From NCBI GenBank assembly GCA_944363655.1, contig CALVUU010000080.1, positions 1-8,307 of the forward strand: a stretch of DNA of 8,307 nt. Direction: 5' to 3'. A model generated the notes under the pieces. That model was not told the DNA's origin and did no database searches. It worked only from the letters and a program-made list of their open reading frames with translations. This document shows positions 198-6,052 of this stretch, in pieces (positions within the stretch are counted from its first letter, which is position 1; each line of letters opens with the position of its first letter). Source of the DNA: an uncultured Bacilli bacterium (lineage in GTDB: Bacteria; Bacillota_I; Bacilli_A; RF39; UBA660). Position numbers and translations under genes: made by a program.

Positions 198-1775
198 ATG
201 ACTGATAGAAAGAAATTAGAGAAATATTTAATAATTGGAGTTATAGCTTTATTTGTAGTAATTAGTGCTACGTATGCATTTTTTCAAGCGCAACTTGATG
301 ATGGAGCACAAACAGATGTTAATGTTGGTTCAAATACCACTGATAGCTTAACATTTGATGTAAATAATGCAATTAATTTAAATATTAACCAATTTAATTT
401 TGGGGTAGGAGCTGGTAATCTTTCAAGTAGTGCAACAGCTAGTGCAACACTACTTGCTAATAACAGTAGTAATACAGCAACTTATACTTATTATGTTTAT
501 TTTAAAATTAATTCTAATGAATTTGTTTATACTACAAGTGATTCTAAACCAGAAATACTACTTACAGTAACTGATCCAACAGGACAACCTGTTACATCTA
601 TTGATGGACTTACATATGTTCAAAATGTCCAAACTACAACTAGTGATGGATCTACCCAAACAGTAAGTGGTTTTGATATTACAACAGCAACAGGTACATT
701 TGCAGTGGCTTCCGCTTATAGTATAACTGCAGATAGTACTACCCCAACTACCCAAAATTGGGAGTTTACAGCAACATTTATTAATCTAGATTCTGATCAA
801 CAAGGTAATACCGGCAAAACAATGGATGCTGATATAATAATACAAGAAGAAGAATTAAAACAAACATTTGCAGAATATATAATTAGTCAATATACAACAG
901 ATGGGGAAAATGGATTATATTATCACGATGCTGATTTAGCAACTGGAGCCCAAGATAATAGTTACAGATATAGTGGAGCAAATCCGAATAATTATGTATG
1001 CTTTGGCAGTGATGAAGAAACATGTCCAGCAGAAAATTTATATCGTATAATTGGCATATTTGATGATGATAAAAATAGTAATTATCAAATAAAATTAATA
1101 AAGAGTGATTATACAACAAGTGCAATGTTAGGAACAGATGGAAGAGATTATTATGGTACTTATGATCAGGATACTTCAAGTTATAAAGGAAGTATGGATA
1201 CAAGTACAATAGCAGGATATAGGTGGAATTATGATACGAGTGTAAGTGAATTTGGATCAAATAACTGGACAACAAGTGAATTTAATACAATAAATTTAAA
1301 TACAAATTATTGGAATTATTTAGGTCCAACATGGCAAGATTTAATAGCAACAACAACATGGCATCTCGGAGGAATGTCATCAAGCAGTAATACAGCAAAA
1401 GCATTTTACGATGGAGAAAGAAATAATGCGGGATATGGAAATAATCCAACAACATATAACGATGAAATAGGATTAATGTATCCCAGCGATTATGGATATG
1501 CAGCAAGTCCAGATAACTGGAATACAAACATGGGAGATTTATATAATGATACAAATAGAAATAATAACTGGATGTTTATGAGGTTAGATGAATTGGCAAT
1601 TACTCCGCGTTCGTCGTACAGTAGCGGCGTGTTTGCTGTGAGCAGCTATGGCTCCTTGGGCAGCAGCAGCGCTGACGGCGGGTATGCCGCTAGACCTGTC
1701 TTTTATCTGAAATCTAATGTAGCATTACAAGGAGGAAGTGGAACTTCAAGCGATCCATATCGCCTTGCAGTGTGA
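198..1775 (+). CDS. Secreted or anchored surface protein with a DUF6273/C-type-lectin-like C-terminal domain and a putative hypervariable tail
   Basis: The protein has 525 residues from ATG 198. I prefer this start over ATG 192 because the ribosome site AAGGA (184-188) is 9 nt from 198 but only 3 nt from 192. A charged N-terminus is followed by a hydrophobic segment (about residues 11-29) ending in ATYAFFQAQ. This resembles the signal segments of TasA/camelysin-like (SipW-type) exported proteins. A Thr/Ser/Asn-rich, probably beta-rich region runs to about residue 220. From about residue 256 the sequence is of a type common in gut Firmicutes surface proteins: YRYSGANPNNYVCF, a Cys pair at 268/276, LYRIIGIF, then a Trp/Asn/Gly-rich stretch ending in ARPVFYLKS and a GGSGTSSDPYRL tail. 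Residues 470-503 differ sharply in base composition and look like a DGR variable region. The gene ends in tandem TGA stops. Export and cell-surface location are likely. Ligand binding is inferred from fold-type resemblance only. Confidence 0.75.
   Translation: MTDRKKLEKYLIIGVIALFVVISATYAFFQAQLDDGAQTDVNVGSNTTDSLTFDVNNAINLNINQFNFGVGAGNLSSSATASATLLANNSSNTATYTYYVYFKINSNEFVYTTSDSKPEILLTVTDPTGQPVTSIDGLTYVQNVQTTTSDGSTQTVSGFDITTATGTFAVASAYSITADSTTPTTQNWEFTATFINLDSDQQGNTGKTMDADIIIQEEELKQTFAEYIISQYTTDGENGLYYHDADLATGAQDNSYRYSGANPNNYVCFGSDEETCPAENLYRIIGIFDDDKNSNYQIKLIKSDYTTSAMLGTDGRDYYGTYDQDTSSYKGSMDTSTIAGYRWNYDTSVSEFGSNNWTTSEFNTINLNTNYWNYLGPTWQDLIATTTWHLGGMSSSSNTAKAFYDGERNNAGYGNNPTTYNDEIGLMYPSDYGYAASPDNWNTNMGDLYNDTNRNNNWMFMRLDELAITPRSSYSSGVFAVSSYGSLGSSSADGGYAARPVFYLKSNVALQGGSGTSSDPYRLAV
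1605..1709 (+). other. Putative DGR-type variable region at the 3' end of the surface-protein gene
   Basis: These codons encode a Ser/Gly/Ala/Tyr-rich stretch just before the conserved ARPVFYL motif. By hand count, 1605-1706 is 61/102 G+C with only 14 A, against about 30% GC on both sides. The stretch has no Asn or Lys codon, whereas the 30 residues before it contain eight Asn. Fourteen codons (TAC, AGC, GGC, TCC, GAC, GCC) are what A-directed mutagenesis of AAC codons gives. Their position at the gene end, in a DUF6273-like domain, is where DGR variable regions lie. The reverse transcriptase and template repeat are not in this window, so the call is inferred from composition and context. Confidence 0.5.
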
Positions 1776-1817: not shown

Positions 1818-1857
1818 CGCCGAGTTATCAACAATGAATAAAAATAGAAAGGAAAGT

Positions 1858-2976
1858 ATGAAAACATTAAAAGATATTGATGTAAGTAATAAAAGTGTTG
1901 TAATAAGATGTGATTTTAATGTACCTATGGAAGGAGTTAGAATAACTGATAATAGTAAGATAGTTAAGAGTTTGGATACTTTAAAGTATTTATTAGATAA
2001 CAACTGTAAGATAGTTATATTAAGTCATTTTGGGAGAGTTAAAAGTGAAGAAGATAAAAGTAAAAATACTTTAAAGTATGTGGGTCAAGAACTTAGTAAT
2101 TTGCTTGGAAAAGAAGTAAAGTTTGTAGATAAATGTAATGGAGCAAAAGTTAAAGAGTTTGTAGATTCATGTAACAAGGGAGATGTTATTCTACTTGAAA
2201 ACACTAGGATAATGGATTATCCTGAGAAGTTAGAAAGTGGTAATGATATGGAACTTGCTAAGTTTTGGGCAAGTTTAGGGGACGTTTATGTAAATGATGC
2301 ATTTGGTTCTATGCATAGGGCACATGCTTCTACTGCTGGTATTGCGAAGTTTATTCCTCATTGTATTGGATTGCTCGTAGAAGAAGAACTTAATAACTTA
2401 AGTATTTTAGTTAAGGATACTCCTCATCCTTTCGGAGTATTTATGGGTGGAGCTAAAGTAGATGATAAATTACCTATAATTAAGTCATTACTTGATAGAT
2501 GTGACTTCTTACTTACTGGTGGTGGTATTGCTAATTCTTTCTTAAAAGCAAAGGGTGCTGATGTTGGGGCAAGTATTGCTACTAGTGATGATGATATATT
2601 AAATGAATTAAGAGATTTAATGGATAAATATAAGGGTAAAATAATACTTCCAGTAGATTTTACAATAGATGATGGTATAATATATGATATTGGAAGTAAG
2701 AGTTTAGAATTATATAAGAAATATATTAATCAAAGTGAAATAATATTTGTCAATGGAACTTGTGGTAAATTTGAAGATGATAGGTTTACAGAAGGTACAA
2801 GTGGTTTATTTAAAATACTTAAAGAAAGTAATAAAAAGGTTATAGTTGGTGGTGGAGATACTGTTTCAGCGGCGAAAAAGTTTGGCTATGAGTTTTCATT
2901 TATGTCTAGTGGTGGAGGGGCAACACTAGAATATATTGCAGATGGTACTTTAAAGGCCTTAGAATGGATGGAATAG
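1858..2976 (+). CDS. pgk: Phosphoglycerate kinase
   Basis: This enzyme transfers phosphate from 1,3-bisphosphoglycerate to ADP, the first ATP-forming step of lower glycolysis, in the cytosol. I chose ATG 1858 over ATG 1834: AGAAAGGA lies just ahead of it, and the product then starts MKTLKDIDV like other family members. It has 372 residues, slightly short for the usual 390 or so. Motifs seen in order are DFNVP (19-23), SHFGR (56-60), LLENTR (112-117), VNDAFGSMHRAHAS (145-158), MGGAKVDDK (196-204), GGGIANSF (221-228), GGGDT (331-335) and SSGGGATLEY (350-359). Two departures stand out. Lys34 sits where the catalytic Arg (Arg38 of the yeast enzyme, in the DxxRIxxxxPTI motif) is expected, and the WNGPMG loop reads VNGTCGKFE. 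The other substrate Arg/His residues are present. The long LENTR-to-GND insertion resembles Bacilli-type enzymes. tpiA follows after 4 bp. Confidence 0.95.
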   Translation: MKTLKDIDVSNKSVVIRCDFNVPMEGVRITDNSKIVKSLDTLKYLLDNNCKIVILSHFGRVKSEEDKSKNTLKYVGQELSNLLGKEVKFVDKCNGAKVKEFVDSCNKGDVILLENTRIMDYPEKLESGNDMELAKFWASLGDVYVNDAFGSMHRAHASTAGIAKFIPHCIGLLVEEELNNLSILVKDTPHPFGVFMGGAKVDDKLPIIKSLLDRCDFLLTGGGIANSFLKAKGADVGASIATSDDDILNELRDLMDKYKGKIILPVDFTIDDGIIYDIGSKSLELYKKYINQSEIIFVNGTCGKFEDDRFTEGTSGLFKILKESNKKVIVGGGDTVSAAKKFGYEFSFMSSGGGATLEYIADGTLKALEWME

Positions 2977-2980
2977 TATT

Positions 2981-3694
2981 ATGAAGTATTTTGTATGTAA
3001 TTTTAAAAATAAATTAGTTAAAGATGATATAGTTAGATATAACAATAGATTAAGTGAAATTGAAAGTAAAAAGGTAAAGTTGGTAATTGTACCATCTTTA
3101 CCCTTTTTAGCGTTTTTTGATAGAAATGGATATAGTTTAGGTAGTCAGGATATATCTTCATTTATGGATAAAACTATTACAGGAGAAGTAACTGGGGAAC
3201 AACTTAAAAGTATGGGGGTAGAATATGTAATAGTGGGACATAGTGAAAGAAGAGCGTATAAACATGAAATAAATATTGATTTTATAAATAAAATCAATAA
3301 TGCAATGGAAAACAATATTAAAGTAATATATTGTATTGGAGAAACTTTAAAAGATAAAGAAGAGGGAAATACTTATATGGTTTTAGAAAAACAAATAAGT
3401 GAAGTACTTAATAATGTTGAAGTTAAAAATATAATTATTGCTTATGAACCAGTTTGGGCGATAGGAACTGGCAAATTACCTAGTGAAAAAGAAATAAGAG
3501 ATAATATAGAGTTTATTAAAGATGTAATAGAAGAAAATTATGATACAAGATTAGATGTATTATACGGTGGAAGTATAAATAAAGATAATATTGCAAGCAT
3601 TAATGCAATTAAATGTGTTGATGGTTTTTTAGTTGGGGGAGCATCAACTAGTATAGATAGTTTGGAAAATATATTATTAGAAATAGAAAAATAA
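2981..3694 (+). CDS. tpiA: Triosephosphate isomerase
   Basis: It interconverts dihydroxyacetone phosphate and glyceraldehyde 3-phosphate, as a TIM-barrel dimer in the cytosol. At 237 residues it is a little shorter than the usual 250 or so. The catalytic set is complete: Asn7 and Lys9 in CNFKN (a variant of the usual GNWKM), His87 in VGHSERR, and Glu156 in AYEPVWAIGTGK. The phosphate-binding LYGGSI and FLVGGAS motifs are also present. The gene starts 4 bp after the pgk stop. It has only a weak ribosome site (GGATGG, 2966-2971, inside pgk), so translational coupling to pgk is likely. It ends at a strong stem-loop terminator. Confidence 0.95.
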   Translation: MKYFVCNFKNKLVKDDIVRYNNRLSEIESKKVKLVIVPSLPFLAFFDRNGYSLGSQDISSFMDKTITGEVTGEQLKSMGVEYVIVGHSERRAYKHEINIDFINKINNAMENNIKVIYCIGETLKDKEEGNTYMVLEKQISEVLNNVEVKNIIIAYEPVWAIGTGKLPSEKEIRDNIEFIKDVIEENYDTRLDVLYGGSINKDNIASINAIKCVDGFLVGGASTSIDSLENILLEIEK

Positions 3695-3739
3695 ATGAGA
3701 AGCTTTTTTGATGTAATAGGTCAAAAAAGTTTCTCATTT
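3693..3739. terminator. Bidirectional terminator shared by tpiA and the convergent ATPase gene
   Basis: The 19-nt arms at 3693-3711 and 3721-3739 pair fully, with one G-T wobble, around a 9-nt loop (3712-3720). T-rich DNA follows on the plus strand (TTTTGTTTTGATGTTTTT), and a weaker T-rich stretch follows on the minus strand. The left arm overlaps the tpiA stop. The right arm contains the last codons and the TGA stop of the leftward ATPase gene. Confidence 0.85.
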
Positions 3740-5037
3740 TGTTTTGATGTTTTTATACAAAATACAGCATATAACGGAACTGATTTAATATTGTTTTCAA
3801 AACCAAAGTTTTTGGTACTTATTCTTATGGCAAAAGAAGGTTTATATTTATTGATATATTCGTTTAAACTTTTACTAGTATTTCTTCTACCTGCCTTAAC
3901 TTCGATTGGAATTATATCTCCATCTATATTTATAAGAAAATCAATTTCGAAGTTAGCAAACGTATAATAAAACAATTCTTTCGTTTTAGGCATTAATTCT
4001 GTTGCTACATAGTTTTCGGATAAAACTCCATTAAACATTTTATTTTTTTCTAATAGTATTTCATTTGGGGATATATTAGACAATGCTCTGAGTAATCCTA
4101 CATCGCTTAGGTATAATTTAAATTTGTCAGTATTTTCATATGCTTTAAGTGGTGATTCATTTTTTTCTGTTAAATTACATTTTAATATCATATTACTTGC
4201 TACTAGCCAATCTATACTATTTTCATATCTTATTTTTCTTGCTTGTTCATCTACAATGCTATATTTAAATGTGTTGTTTTCTCTAGCGAGTTCTCTAGGA
4301 ATGGCTAAATATATTTTATTGTTTTTTACACTTTCGGTATTAATAGTATATTTATTCATATCAGCTAGATAAGAAGAAATTATCATATCCTGATATTCTA
4401 GTAATGAGGGACTTATGGATTTATTATCGATATAATCATCAATGATTCTAGGCATTCCTCCTAGAATCATATAAGTTTTATATAATTTTAGGGCTTTGTT
4501 ATGTACGGCATCAATTAAAGGAACATTACTTTGGTAATGACTTTTAATTTCTTCGATTAACTTCTTCTCACCTAGATTAATTAAGAATTCTTCGAAATCC
4601 AATGGGTATAGATATTTAATAATTACTTTACCAACAGGAAATGAGACAAATTCTCTGTTTATTTTTACACCAAGTAGCGAACCAGCACAAACGATTTTAT
4701 ATGGAATGCTGCTTTCAGCAAAGTATTTTAAAGATGTAATAGCTTTTTCACATGTTTGGATTTCATCGAAAAAAATTATTGTGTTTTCGACATTAAATTC
4801 AGTTTCCATAATTATTTCAATGTTTTTAATTATATTTTGAGGATCTAATGTCTTATCAAATATCGATGAAATTTCTGGGGATTTTTCTAAGTTTATATAA
4901 ATTAAATTTGAATAATATTGTTTACAAAATTTATTTAATATGTATGTTTTACCTGTTTGTCTAGCTCCAATCAACATAAGTGGTAGACTTTCGTTTTGGT
5001 GCCATTTTTTTAATTCTTCTTCTATTTTTCTGTACAT
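3721..5037 (-). CDS. AAA_14/DUF4143 family ATP-binding protein
   Basis: The protein has 438 residues and starts at the minus-strand ATG at 5037-5035, after a good ribosome site (AGGTGATG). The N-terminal P-loop ATPase domain has Walker A GARQTGKT (24-31), Walker B IIFFDEIQ (87-94) and the CAGSLLG sensor-type motif (117-123). The C-terminal DUF4143 region has LYLSDVGLL (308-316), GVLSENYVATEL (337-348) and a nuclease-like core, EIDFLI (364-369) plus IPIEVKAG (376-383). That core resembles the D...ExK arrangement of PD-(D/E)XK enzymes. Members are widespread in bacteria and archaea, often many per genome, and their role is unsettled. The gene looks intact. It lies antisense to the glycolytic genes with its own promoter, as an independent cassette. 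Nuclease activity is only suggested by the motif. Confidence 0.9.
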   Translation of the reverse strand: MYRKIEEELKKWHQNESLPLMLIGARQTGKTYILNKFCKQYYSNLIYINLEKSPEISSIFDKTLDPQNIIKNIEIIMETEFNVENTIIFFDEIQTCEKAITSLKYFAESSIPYKIVCAGSLLGVKINREFVSFPVGKVIIKYLYPLDFEEFLINLGEKKLIEEIKSHYQSNVPLIDAVHNKALKLYKTYMILGGMPRIIDDYIDNKSISPSLLEYQDMIISSYLADMNKYTINTESVKNNKIYLAIPRELARENNTFKYSIVDEQARKIRYENSIDWLVASNMILKCNLTEKNESPLKAYENTDKFKLYLSDVGLLRALSNISPNEILLEKNKMFNGVLSENYVATELMPKTKELFYYTFANFEIDFLINIDGDIIPIEVKAGRRNTSKSLNEYINKYKPSFAIRISTKNFGFENNIKSVPLYAVFCIKTSKQNEKLF

Positions 5038-5287: not shown

Positions 5288-6052
5288 ATGAACAGAATGA
5301 TTAAAGTTGTTGCAATAGATGACAACGAAGCGGTGTTAAGTAGTGTTAGGAAGTACTTTAAGAGTAGTGACGTAGTTAAAGTTGTAGGATGTTTCAATAA
5401 TGGAAAAGAAGGGTTAAAATATTTAATCAATAATCATGATGATTATGACGTGATATTAATGGATATTTTGATGCCACAGATAGATGGCATTAGAATGTTA
5501 GAGGAATTAAATAAAAGAAATATTGAAAAGAAAATAATTGTTTTATCTAGTTTTAAAGATGATTATACAATTAAAAAGGTTCAAAGATTAAAAGCAAGTT
5601 ATTATATGCTTAAACCAGTTGAATTGAAAATACTAGAAGAAAGAATAGTAGATTTATTTGAAGAAAGTGCTGAAGTTAAATATGCGGATAACTATAGTGT
5701 TGAGGTGGAAGTTAGTTCTCTTTTACACGATTTAGGAATTCCATCACATGTTAGGGGTTATAAATATATTAGAGAAGGAATAATGCTTTTATATACAAGT
5801 AAGGAAGTAGTAACTTTAGTTACTAAGGATTTATATCCGGAGATTGCTAATAGATTTAATACTACATCTTCAAGAGTTGAAAGAGCAATTAGACATGCTA
5901 TTGAAATTAGTTGGATTAGAGGAGATTTAAAAATTATGGAAGAAATATTTGGTAATTCTATTGATTTTGAAAGAAGTAAACCAACTAATTCAGAATTTTT
6001 AACTACCATTGCTGACAGATTGAAATTACATCAAAAGGATTTGGTGGGGTAA
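5288..6052 (+). CDS. spo0A: Sporulation master regulator Spo0A
   Basis: This is a response regulator that, when phosphorylated, binds Spo0A boxes to start sporulation and repress growth-phase genes. It has 254 residues, against about 267 in Bacillus subtilis. The receiver domain (about 4-125) has the acidic pair Asp11/Asp12, phospho-acceptor Asp59 in ILMDILMP, the switch Ser87/88, and Lys109 in LKP. After a short linker, the Spo0A-specific DNA-binding domain (about 136-245) has LLHDLGIPSHVRGYKY, TKDLYPEIA, the recognition-helix segment SRVERAIRHAIEISW, and the hallmark KPTNSEF (231-237). The ribosome site AAAGGA (5277-5282) fixes the start. The gene looks complete. Unusually, it lies beside glycolytic genes; in many spore formers it follows spoIVB. 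Autoregulation is suggested by the upstream boxes. Confidence 0.96.
   Translation: MNRMIKVVAIDDNEAVLSSVRKYFKSSDVVKVVGCFNNGKEGLKYLINNHDDYDVILMDILMPQIDGIRMLEELNKRNIEKKIIVLSSFKDDYTIKKVQRLKASYYMLKPVELKILEERIVDLFEESAEVKYADNYSVEVEVSSLLHDLGIPSHVRGYKYIREGIMLLYTSKEVVTLVTKDLYPEIANRFNTTSSRVERAIRHAIEISWIRGDLKIMEEIFGNSIDFERSKPTNSEFLTTIADRLKLHQKDLVG

Follow-up and report, generated by a model that had tools for sequence, protein, structure and literature searches.

The window analysed here is an 8,307-nucleotide stretch (positions 1 to 8,307 of contig CALVUU010000080.1, GenBank assembly GCA_944363655.1) from an uncultured Bacilli bacterium of the RF39 lineage, and the question it raises is why a gene for a predicted surface protein should end in a block of abruptly different base composition. 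Positions 1605-1709 have 60.0% GC against 31.8% in the rest of the gene, and the GC content of 105-base stretches that end before 1550 or start after 1850 is at most 45.7%. The block holds 14 A in 105 bases and no AAN codon, and eight Asn lie among the 30 residues preceding it, all of which agrees with a preliminary description of this DNA; the enrichment in NNC codons also stands, with a count of 15 of 35 rather than fourteen. From these features the block had been proposed to be the variable region (VR) of a diversity-generating retroelement (DGR), located at the 3' end of the target gene and written from a template region (TR) by a reverse transcriptase (RT) encoded elsewhere in the genome. 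The match to a template and the codon signature support this proposal, and the probability that 1605-1694 is the VR of a DGR target, active or not, is placed at about 0.95. The extent first given was too long, since template homology covers only ~1605-1694 (CCG ... GCT AGA) and 1695-1709 are constant.

Templates and reverse transcriptases in related genomes

A scan of genome contigs gave 77 loci, from metagenome-assembled genomes designated uncultured Bacilli, Tenericutes or bacterium. Nineteen genomes with such loci, all in the genus of G001 (30 congeneric genomes), were searched, and RVT_1 matches were found in all 19. Twenty RT loci from 14 genomes, picked by eye for an RVT_1 match starting near profile position 8, were examined; an AAC/AAT-rich copy of a VR, the TR, was located no more than roughly 1.5 kb from the RT at 16 of the 20 loci, in 11 genomes, the copies in L119 and L122 being incomplete. 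Two classes of TR are present. The class matching the window, NSSNSNNVFNVNNNGNLNNNNANNGYAAR, is located after the RT and the second class, SRNSDNTNNAFNVNN..., before it, with both occurring together in G005, G006, G007 and G009. With at most 2 mismatches the window-class core motif occurs at eight places in 5 of the 30 genomes of the genus, two of these places being VRs or VR-like. With at most 1 mismatch it occurs in 2 of a sample of 291 genomes of the family. Variant templates, for example those in G002 and G009, escape this motif.

Compared with the TR of G006, which comes from a related species, the window VR is changed at 22 of 36 template A but at 3 of 58 other bases (p 3e-9). The near-identical copy close to a DGR-type RT, with differences on template adenines, that had been named as the thing to look for thus exists in a relative. 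The window and five VRs of G007 (L023 excluded) agree at 50 of 56 non-A columns and at 3 of 34 A columns. Two of the non-A differences from the G006 template are common to all six VRs and the third to five of the six, so that the window and G007 VRs seem to descend from a close variant of that template.

The cassette of G006 and G007 displays the order target, open reading frame (98-120 aa), 122-aa protein, RT (352-354 aa), TR, open reading frame (88-96 aa), target. The G006 RT is an RVT_1 protein of 352 aa with the motifs IGNMTSQ and YMDD, whose gene follows that of the Avd-like protein and whose stop is followed after ~20 bases by the TR; its closest solved structure is 8ub7, which we take to be the BPP-1 DGR RT. 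The 122-aa protein (L114 2892-3257) matches the Avd families NF033474 (8e-12), phrog_3206, the PHROG Avd (5e-12), and bAvd (2e-7). An apparent IS110-like transposase (L116 8282-9619, by eye) lies between the G007 DGR cassette and its first target. RTs of other kinds also occur in these genomes: retron RT families are the best match for three of the five that were tested (L082 1501-2112, L085 1501-2076 and L087 1501-2073), and group II intron or generic RT families for the two in L078 and L080. A single exact 23-base hit to the TR core in the viral contig L244 (9218-9240), where the AAC-rich motif adjoins long tail-fibre-like genes (by eye), was set aside as apparently belonging to an unrelated phage DGR, its target being lectin-like but different.

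Variation among homologs and orthologs

The 15 codons of the window VR that are AAC or AAT in the G006 template all end in C or T, and 12 of them in C; elsewhere in the gene the proportions are 52.5% and 6.0% (binomial p 6e-5 and 9e-13). The GC level of the block is what results when A is randomised in AAC codons. The same signature extends across homologous VRs, of which 36 were found and 34 retained (L013 and L062 dropped). Nucleotide diversity at bases 1, 2 and 3 is.674,.634 and.305 in AAY-derived codons,.193,.133 and.356 in the other VR codons and.302,.281 and.350 in the 20 codons preceding the VR, and base 3 of the AAY-derived codons is C or T in 505 of 510 cases. Between homologs, change therefore concentrates on AAC/AAT-derived codons, as the preliminary description had anticipated.

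At the protein level, 7654 relatives were found among the 8000 candidates scored (those with most shared words), and 120 of them were listed. The usual C-terminus among the relatives listed is WMYMGLxEWTITPxSSxSxxVFxVxxxGxLxxxxAxxG..ARPVFYL, where x is free, and a smaller share display an ISR-pattern C-terminus; one relative is from Candidatus Onthocola stercoravium, a genus assigned to Bacilli by NCBI. Pairs were compared among the 97 of the 120 proteins that have a 27-residue VR, gap-free over the preceding 200 residues. In 49 pairs at least 90% identical upstream, which are not independent of one another, a mean of 10.1 of 15 variable sites and 1.4 of 12 other VR sites differ, some of these pairs having identical VRs. 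The proteins P0058 and P0071 share all 200 upstream residues and differ at 13 of 15 variable and 1 of 12 other sites.

The target gene also stands directly before pgk-tpi in L001-L004 and L053. In L001 the flanks are 94% (N-terminal part), 84% (C-terminal domain before the VR), 91% (tail), 95% (stem-loop region) and 91% (pgk) identical to the window, and the VR is identical at 9 of 34 template-A sites and 42 of 56 other sites. The flanks of L002, L003, L004 and L053 are 70-87% identical, with agreement at 12/34, 13/31, 15/32 and 11/34 template-A sites and at 38/56, 39/55, 44/56 and 44/56 other VR sites, respectively. Template-A sites are changed to random level between the closest orthologs. 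At the pgk site of G006 (L008) a target at 1384-2952, 234 bases before pgk (3186), carries an ISR-type VR, which is that of the other class, as though the C-terminus at this site had switched to the other DGR.

Number and dispersal of targets

Three draft genomes of ~1.1-1.3 Mb, G006, G007 and G005, each hold RT, TR and some closely matching VRs within one genome. A C-terminal profile matched 23, 24 and 36 places in them, respectively, of which 22, 22 and 30 were tested after exclusion of the templates L180, L203 and L204 and of six G005 places (one of them a template). Each place was scored against the best of 16 TRs with A mismatches forgiven, a procedure that leans towards A bias, and the threshold of 70 exceeds the shuffled maximum of 46; 31 of the 74 paralogs fail it. 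VR-type ends number 14 of 22 in G006, 15 of 22 in G007 and 14 of 30 in G005, and 11, 12 and 12 of them, respectively, lie off the contigs of the two DGR RTs. Differences between a VR and the TR of its own genome, at template A and at non-A bases, are 15/36 and 0/58 for L170, 18/36 and 1/58 for L158, 18/39 and 0/64 for L190, 14/35 and 0/60 for L224, 11/35 and 1/59 for L196 and 16/34 and 1/57 for L197; L160, at 21/36 and 4/58, is a weaker case.

A stem-loop at the stop codon

The stop codon of the window target lies within a fold of -30 kcal/mol (z -4.1; 0 of 200 shuffles as good), which begins ~75 bases past the end of the VR, where no initiation of mutagenic homing (IMH) element was defined. 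Among 36 window-class VRs, 27 have a stop-codon fold with an energy of -20 kcal/mol or below. In the three draft genomes the median energy is -24.3 at the 43 VR-type ends against -13.6 at the 31 other paralogs (p 4e-6), or -24.4 against -13.4 without L199 and L211, whose stop is far downstream (p 2e-6), a comparison that is confounded by GC content. There, folds of -20 or lower occur in 17 of 17 window-class VRs and 7 of 25 of the other class, and 13 of the 43 VR-type ends, but none of the 31 other paralogs, are followed by the motif TTATCAAC or TTATCCAC. Few non-A differences go with a strong stem-loop (rho 0.69, 42 VRs), largely as a class effect; within classes rho is -0.07 (window's class) and 0.39 (other class, p 0.055).

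RNAalifold, run on 23 sequences chosen for having the stem-loop, gave 6 pairs, 3 of them compensatory, with a total of -0.44 kcal/mol. We think that the stems were misaligned, and what is claimed is a similarity of single folds, not covariation. An intrinsic terminator was considered and rejected on the lack, by eye, of a T-run 3' of the stem. Homing in BPP-1 is strongly helped by an inverted repeat on the 3' side of the VR (PMC12875486), which by analogy suggests a homing role for the stem-loop here.

The target protein and its neighbourhood

Seven longer genes lie on the window, encoding the 527-residue target, Pgk, Tpi, an AAA_14/DUF4143 protein, Spo0A, GpmI and a 170-residue protein of unknown function (Table 1). 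The target protein matches no Pfam family at E<=0.001 and gives no match to PF19789 (DUF6273) in a gathering-score test. PF19789 is present in the relatives P0046 and P0118, and target 1 of L114 scores 19.7 against a threshold of 23.5. The domain model of the C-terminal 300 residues has a mean predicted local distance difference test score (pLDDT) of 96.1 and a predicted template modelling score of 0.94; in the model of the full-length protein the C-terminal part is mostly below 60 pLDDT. A modelled helix at residues 4-34 would anchor the protein in the membrane. Rfam gave no match at the gathering threshold. The spo0A gene of the window belongs to a lineage with related draft genomes of ~0.9-1.7 Mb. 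In L002 tpi and spo0A are nearly adjacent (13515 and 13675), and L001 has a distant relative of the AAA_14/DUF4143 gene at this place (31% identity), so that this gene looks like an insertion.

Table 1 Features of the window discussed in the text
Feature	Position	Strand	Remark
DGR target gene, 525-527 aa	192..1775	+	predicted N-terminal transmembrane helix, beta domain, C-terminal domain with VR
C-terminal 300 residues of target	873..1772	+	model resembles DUF6273 and, weakly, C-type-lectin domains
Variable region (VR), 30 codons	1605..1694	+	15 codons are AAC/AAT in the G006 template
Conserved tail 3' of VR	1695..1775	+	26 codons and stop
GC-rich stem-loop across target stop codon	1770..1832	+	without T-run
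pgk	1834..2976	+	target gene directly upstream
tpi	2981..3694	+	belongs to the same conserved pgk neighbourhood
AAA_14/DUF4143 gene	3721..5037	-	between tpi and spo0A
spo0A	5288..6052		PF08769, 1e-37

Proposed mechanism and alternative explanations

In the mechanism proposed for the window target, the RT and template would be located elsewhere in the genome. A complex of RT and Avd would copy the AAC-rich template, misreading adenines, and the mutated cDNA would replace the VR at the 3' end of the target gene. The scaffold would thereby be kept while ~15 residues are rewritten, and the cell would display changing ligand-binding tips. An RT and a TR in the bacterium's own genome, current activity, surface exposure and ligands of the protein are what we infer from this scheme.

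Several results weigh against this reading. No RT is encoded in the window, and the search for a TR outside the VR gave a best score of 38, where 20 shuffled windows gave a mean of 37.7 and a maximum of 46; RT and TR were not seen in the window's genome. The earlier placement of both elsewhere in the genome fits their absence from the window, with their position in this particular genome being presumed. G001, the genome of the closest ortholog, has no window-class template by the core motif at up to 2 mismatches; the inferred template variant (36-base stretch, at most 3 mismatches) occurs in 1 of 30 congeneric genomes, the hit being the G006 TR itself; and no TR accompanies 4 of the 20 RT loci (none in L110, L121 and L123, only an A-rich chance match in L125). 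The matches to Avd fall under curated cut-offs (NF033474 45 of 80 bits, bAvd 31.9 of 40), and nine of the 36 window-class VRs are without the stop-codon fold (L013, L018, L027, one L040, L041, L050, L062, L076 and L104). Furthermore, only 18 of the 43 VR-type ends reach a score of 100 against the TR of their own genome (7 in G006, 7 in G007, 4 in G005) and just 7 have 0-1 non-A differences from it. Five of these (L170, L190, L196, L197 and L224) are on the contig of a DGR RT and two (L158 and L191) on other contigs, the VRs of L190 and L191 being identical and possibly from one gene assembled twice.

The target may be frozen, that is, the VR was once written by a DGR whose RT or matching template has since been lost. 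This sub-case of the DGR reading would fit a window without RT or TR, a template subtype found only as the G006 TR among 30 congeneric genomes, the 25 of 43 ends that match their own TR poorly and the truncated template of G009 (L119). It is nevertheless rather unlikely, since the window departs from the G006 TR at merely 3 of 58 non-A bases, the stem-loop region is 95% identical to that of L001 where the template-A sites of the VR are 26% identical, and G006, G007 and G005 each retain RT, TR and some closely matching VRs. Old diversity might instead be shuffled among paralogous C-termini by gene conversion or cassette exchange, with no mutagenic reverse transcription involved. Shuffling copies does not produce change on template adenines with fixed third bases, nor AAC-rich templates near RTs, and we consider this explanation very improbable in spite of the 17-86 profile matches per genome (fragments included) and the other VR class at the G006 pgk site (L008), which would favour it. 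Ordinary positive selection acting on a binding loop, or horizontal acquisition of a GC-rich segment, would find support in the sharp GC contrast with the rest of the gene. That contrast is already accounted for by randomised A in AAC codons, and with third bases that are C or T in 505 of 510 cases and a template match that contradicts both ideas, these are the least credible of the alternatives.

Beyond the DGR origin of the window VR, a broader scheme can be put forward tentatively and with more doubt than confidence. In this genus of gut Bacilli with small genomes, two DGR systems, whose classes occur together in four of the genomes, would write in trans ~15 dispersed membrane-anchored lectin-like proteins per genome, the stop-codon stem-loop would mark a live target, and a target may switch template class at one site, as at pgk. 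The scheme is made less probable by the result that only 18 of 43 ends match their own TR well, so that writing in trans is documented for few targets, mainly L158. Given their larger differences from their own TR, many VR-type ends may be frozen or may use unassembled templates.

Relation to known systems and significance

DGRs, DUF6273-type targets and remote targets are already known. The DGR of Treponema denticola uses one TR and RT for several dispersed targets, seven in ATCC35405, and in one isolate a remote target is closer to another TR type than to its own (PMC4891356). Dispersed targets are common to both systems; here each of the three draft genomes has 14-15 VR-type C-termini, and four genomes contain both TR classes. 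Thiohalocapsa PB-PSB1, a multicellular bacterium with nine DGR loci and 15 targets tied to conflict systems, similarly carries several DGR classes per genome, and its action in trans was argued from metagenomes (PMC10907252). The remote variable proteins of cyanobacteria, of which a survey counted 76, are C-type-lectin targets that are likewise dispersed and carry the VR close to the 3' end, and cruciforms were suggested as their cis elements; unlike the proteins described here, most were predicted to be cytosolic and linked to signalling (PMC7517822). In gut-phage DGR targets the VR lies within a DUF6273 domain reported to be C-type-lectin-like (PMC11792537, PMC10743442), whereas the window target is a chromosomal gene beside pgk-tpi whose product has no PF19789 match. 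The BPP-1 DGR resembles the present system in its RT and Avd, its adenine-directed mutation and a stem-loop downstream of the VR, which in BPP-1 aids homing. There the stem-loop is immediately 3' of the IMH and the TR is before the RT (PMC12875486); here ~75 bases separate the stem-loop from the VR, and window-class TRs come after the RT.

The literature searched gave no pairing of DGR with RF39 or Onthocola, nor did broader searches among the matches listed. Dispersed membrane targets in such numbers seem to be new for small genomes of gut Bacilli. The approach of a large DGR survey would by its own account miss remote targets (PMC8144416), so that the number of such targets is probably underestimated.

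In an uncultured gut lineage whose genomes measure ~1-1.5 Mb, a single surface-protein family is maintained in many copies, and the tips of ~15 family members appear to be hypermutated, now or formerly. Near-parallel targets with known templates could reveal which cis elements, such as the stem-loop, decide the rewriting of remote genes. If live, the system would be a compact bacterial counterpart of a receptor repertoire.
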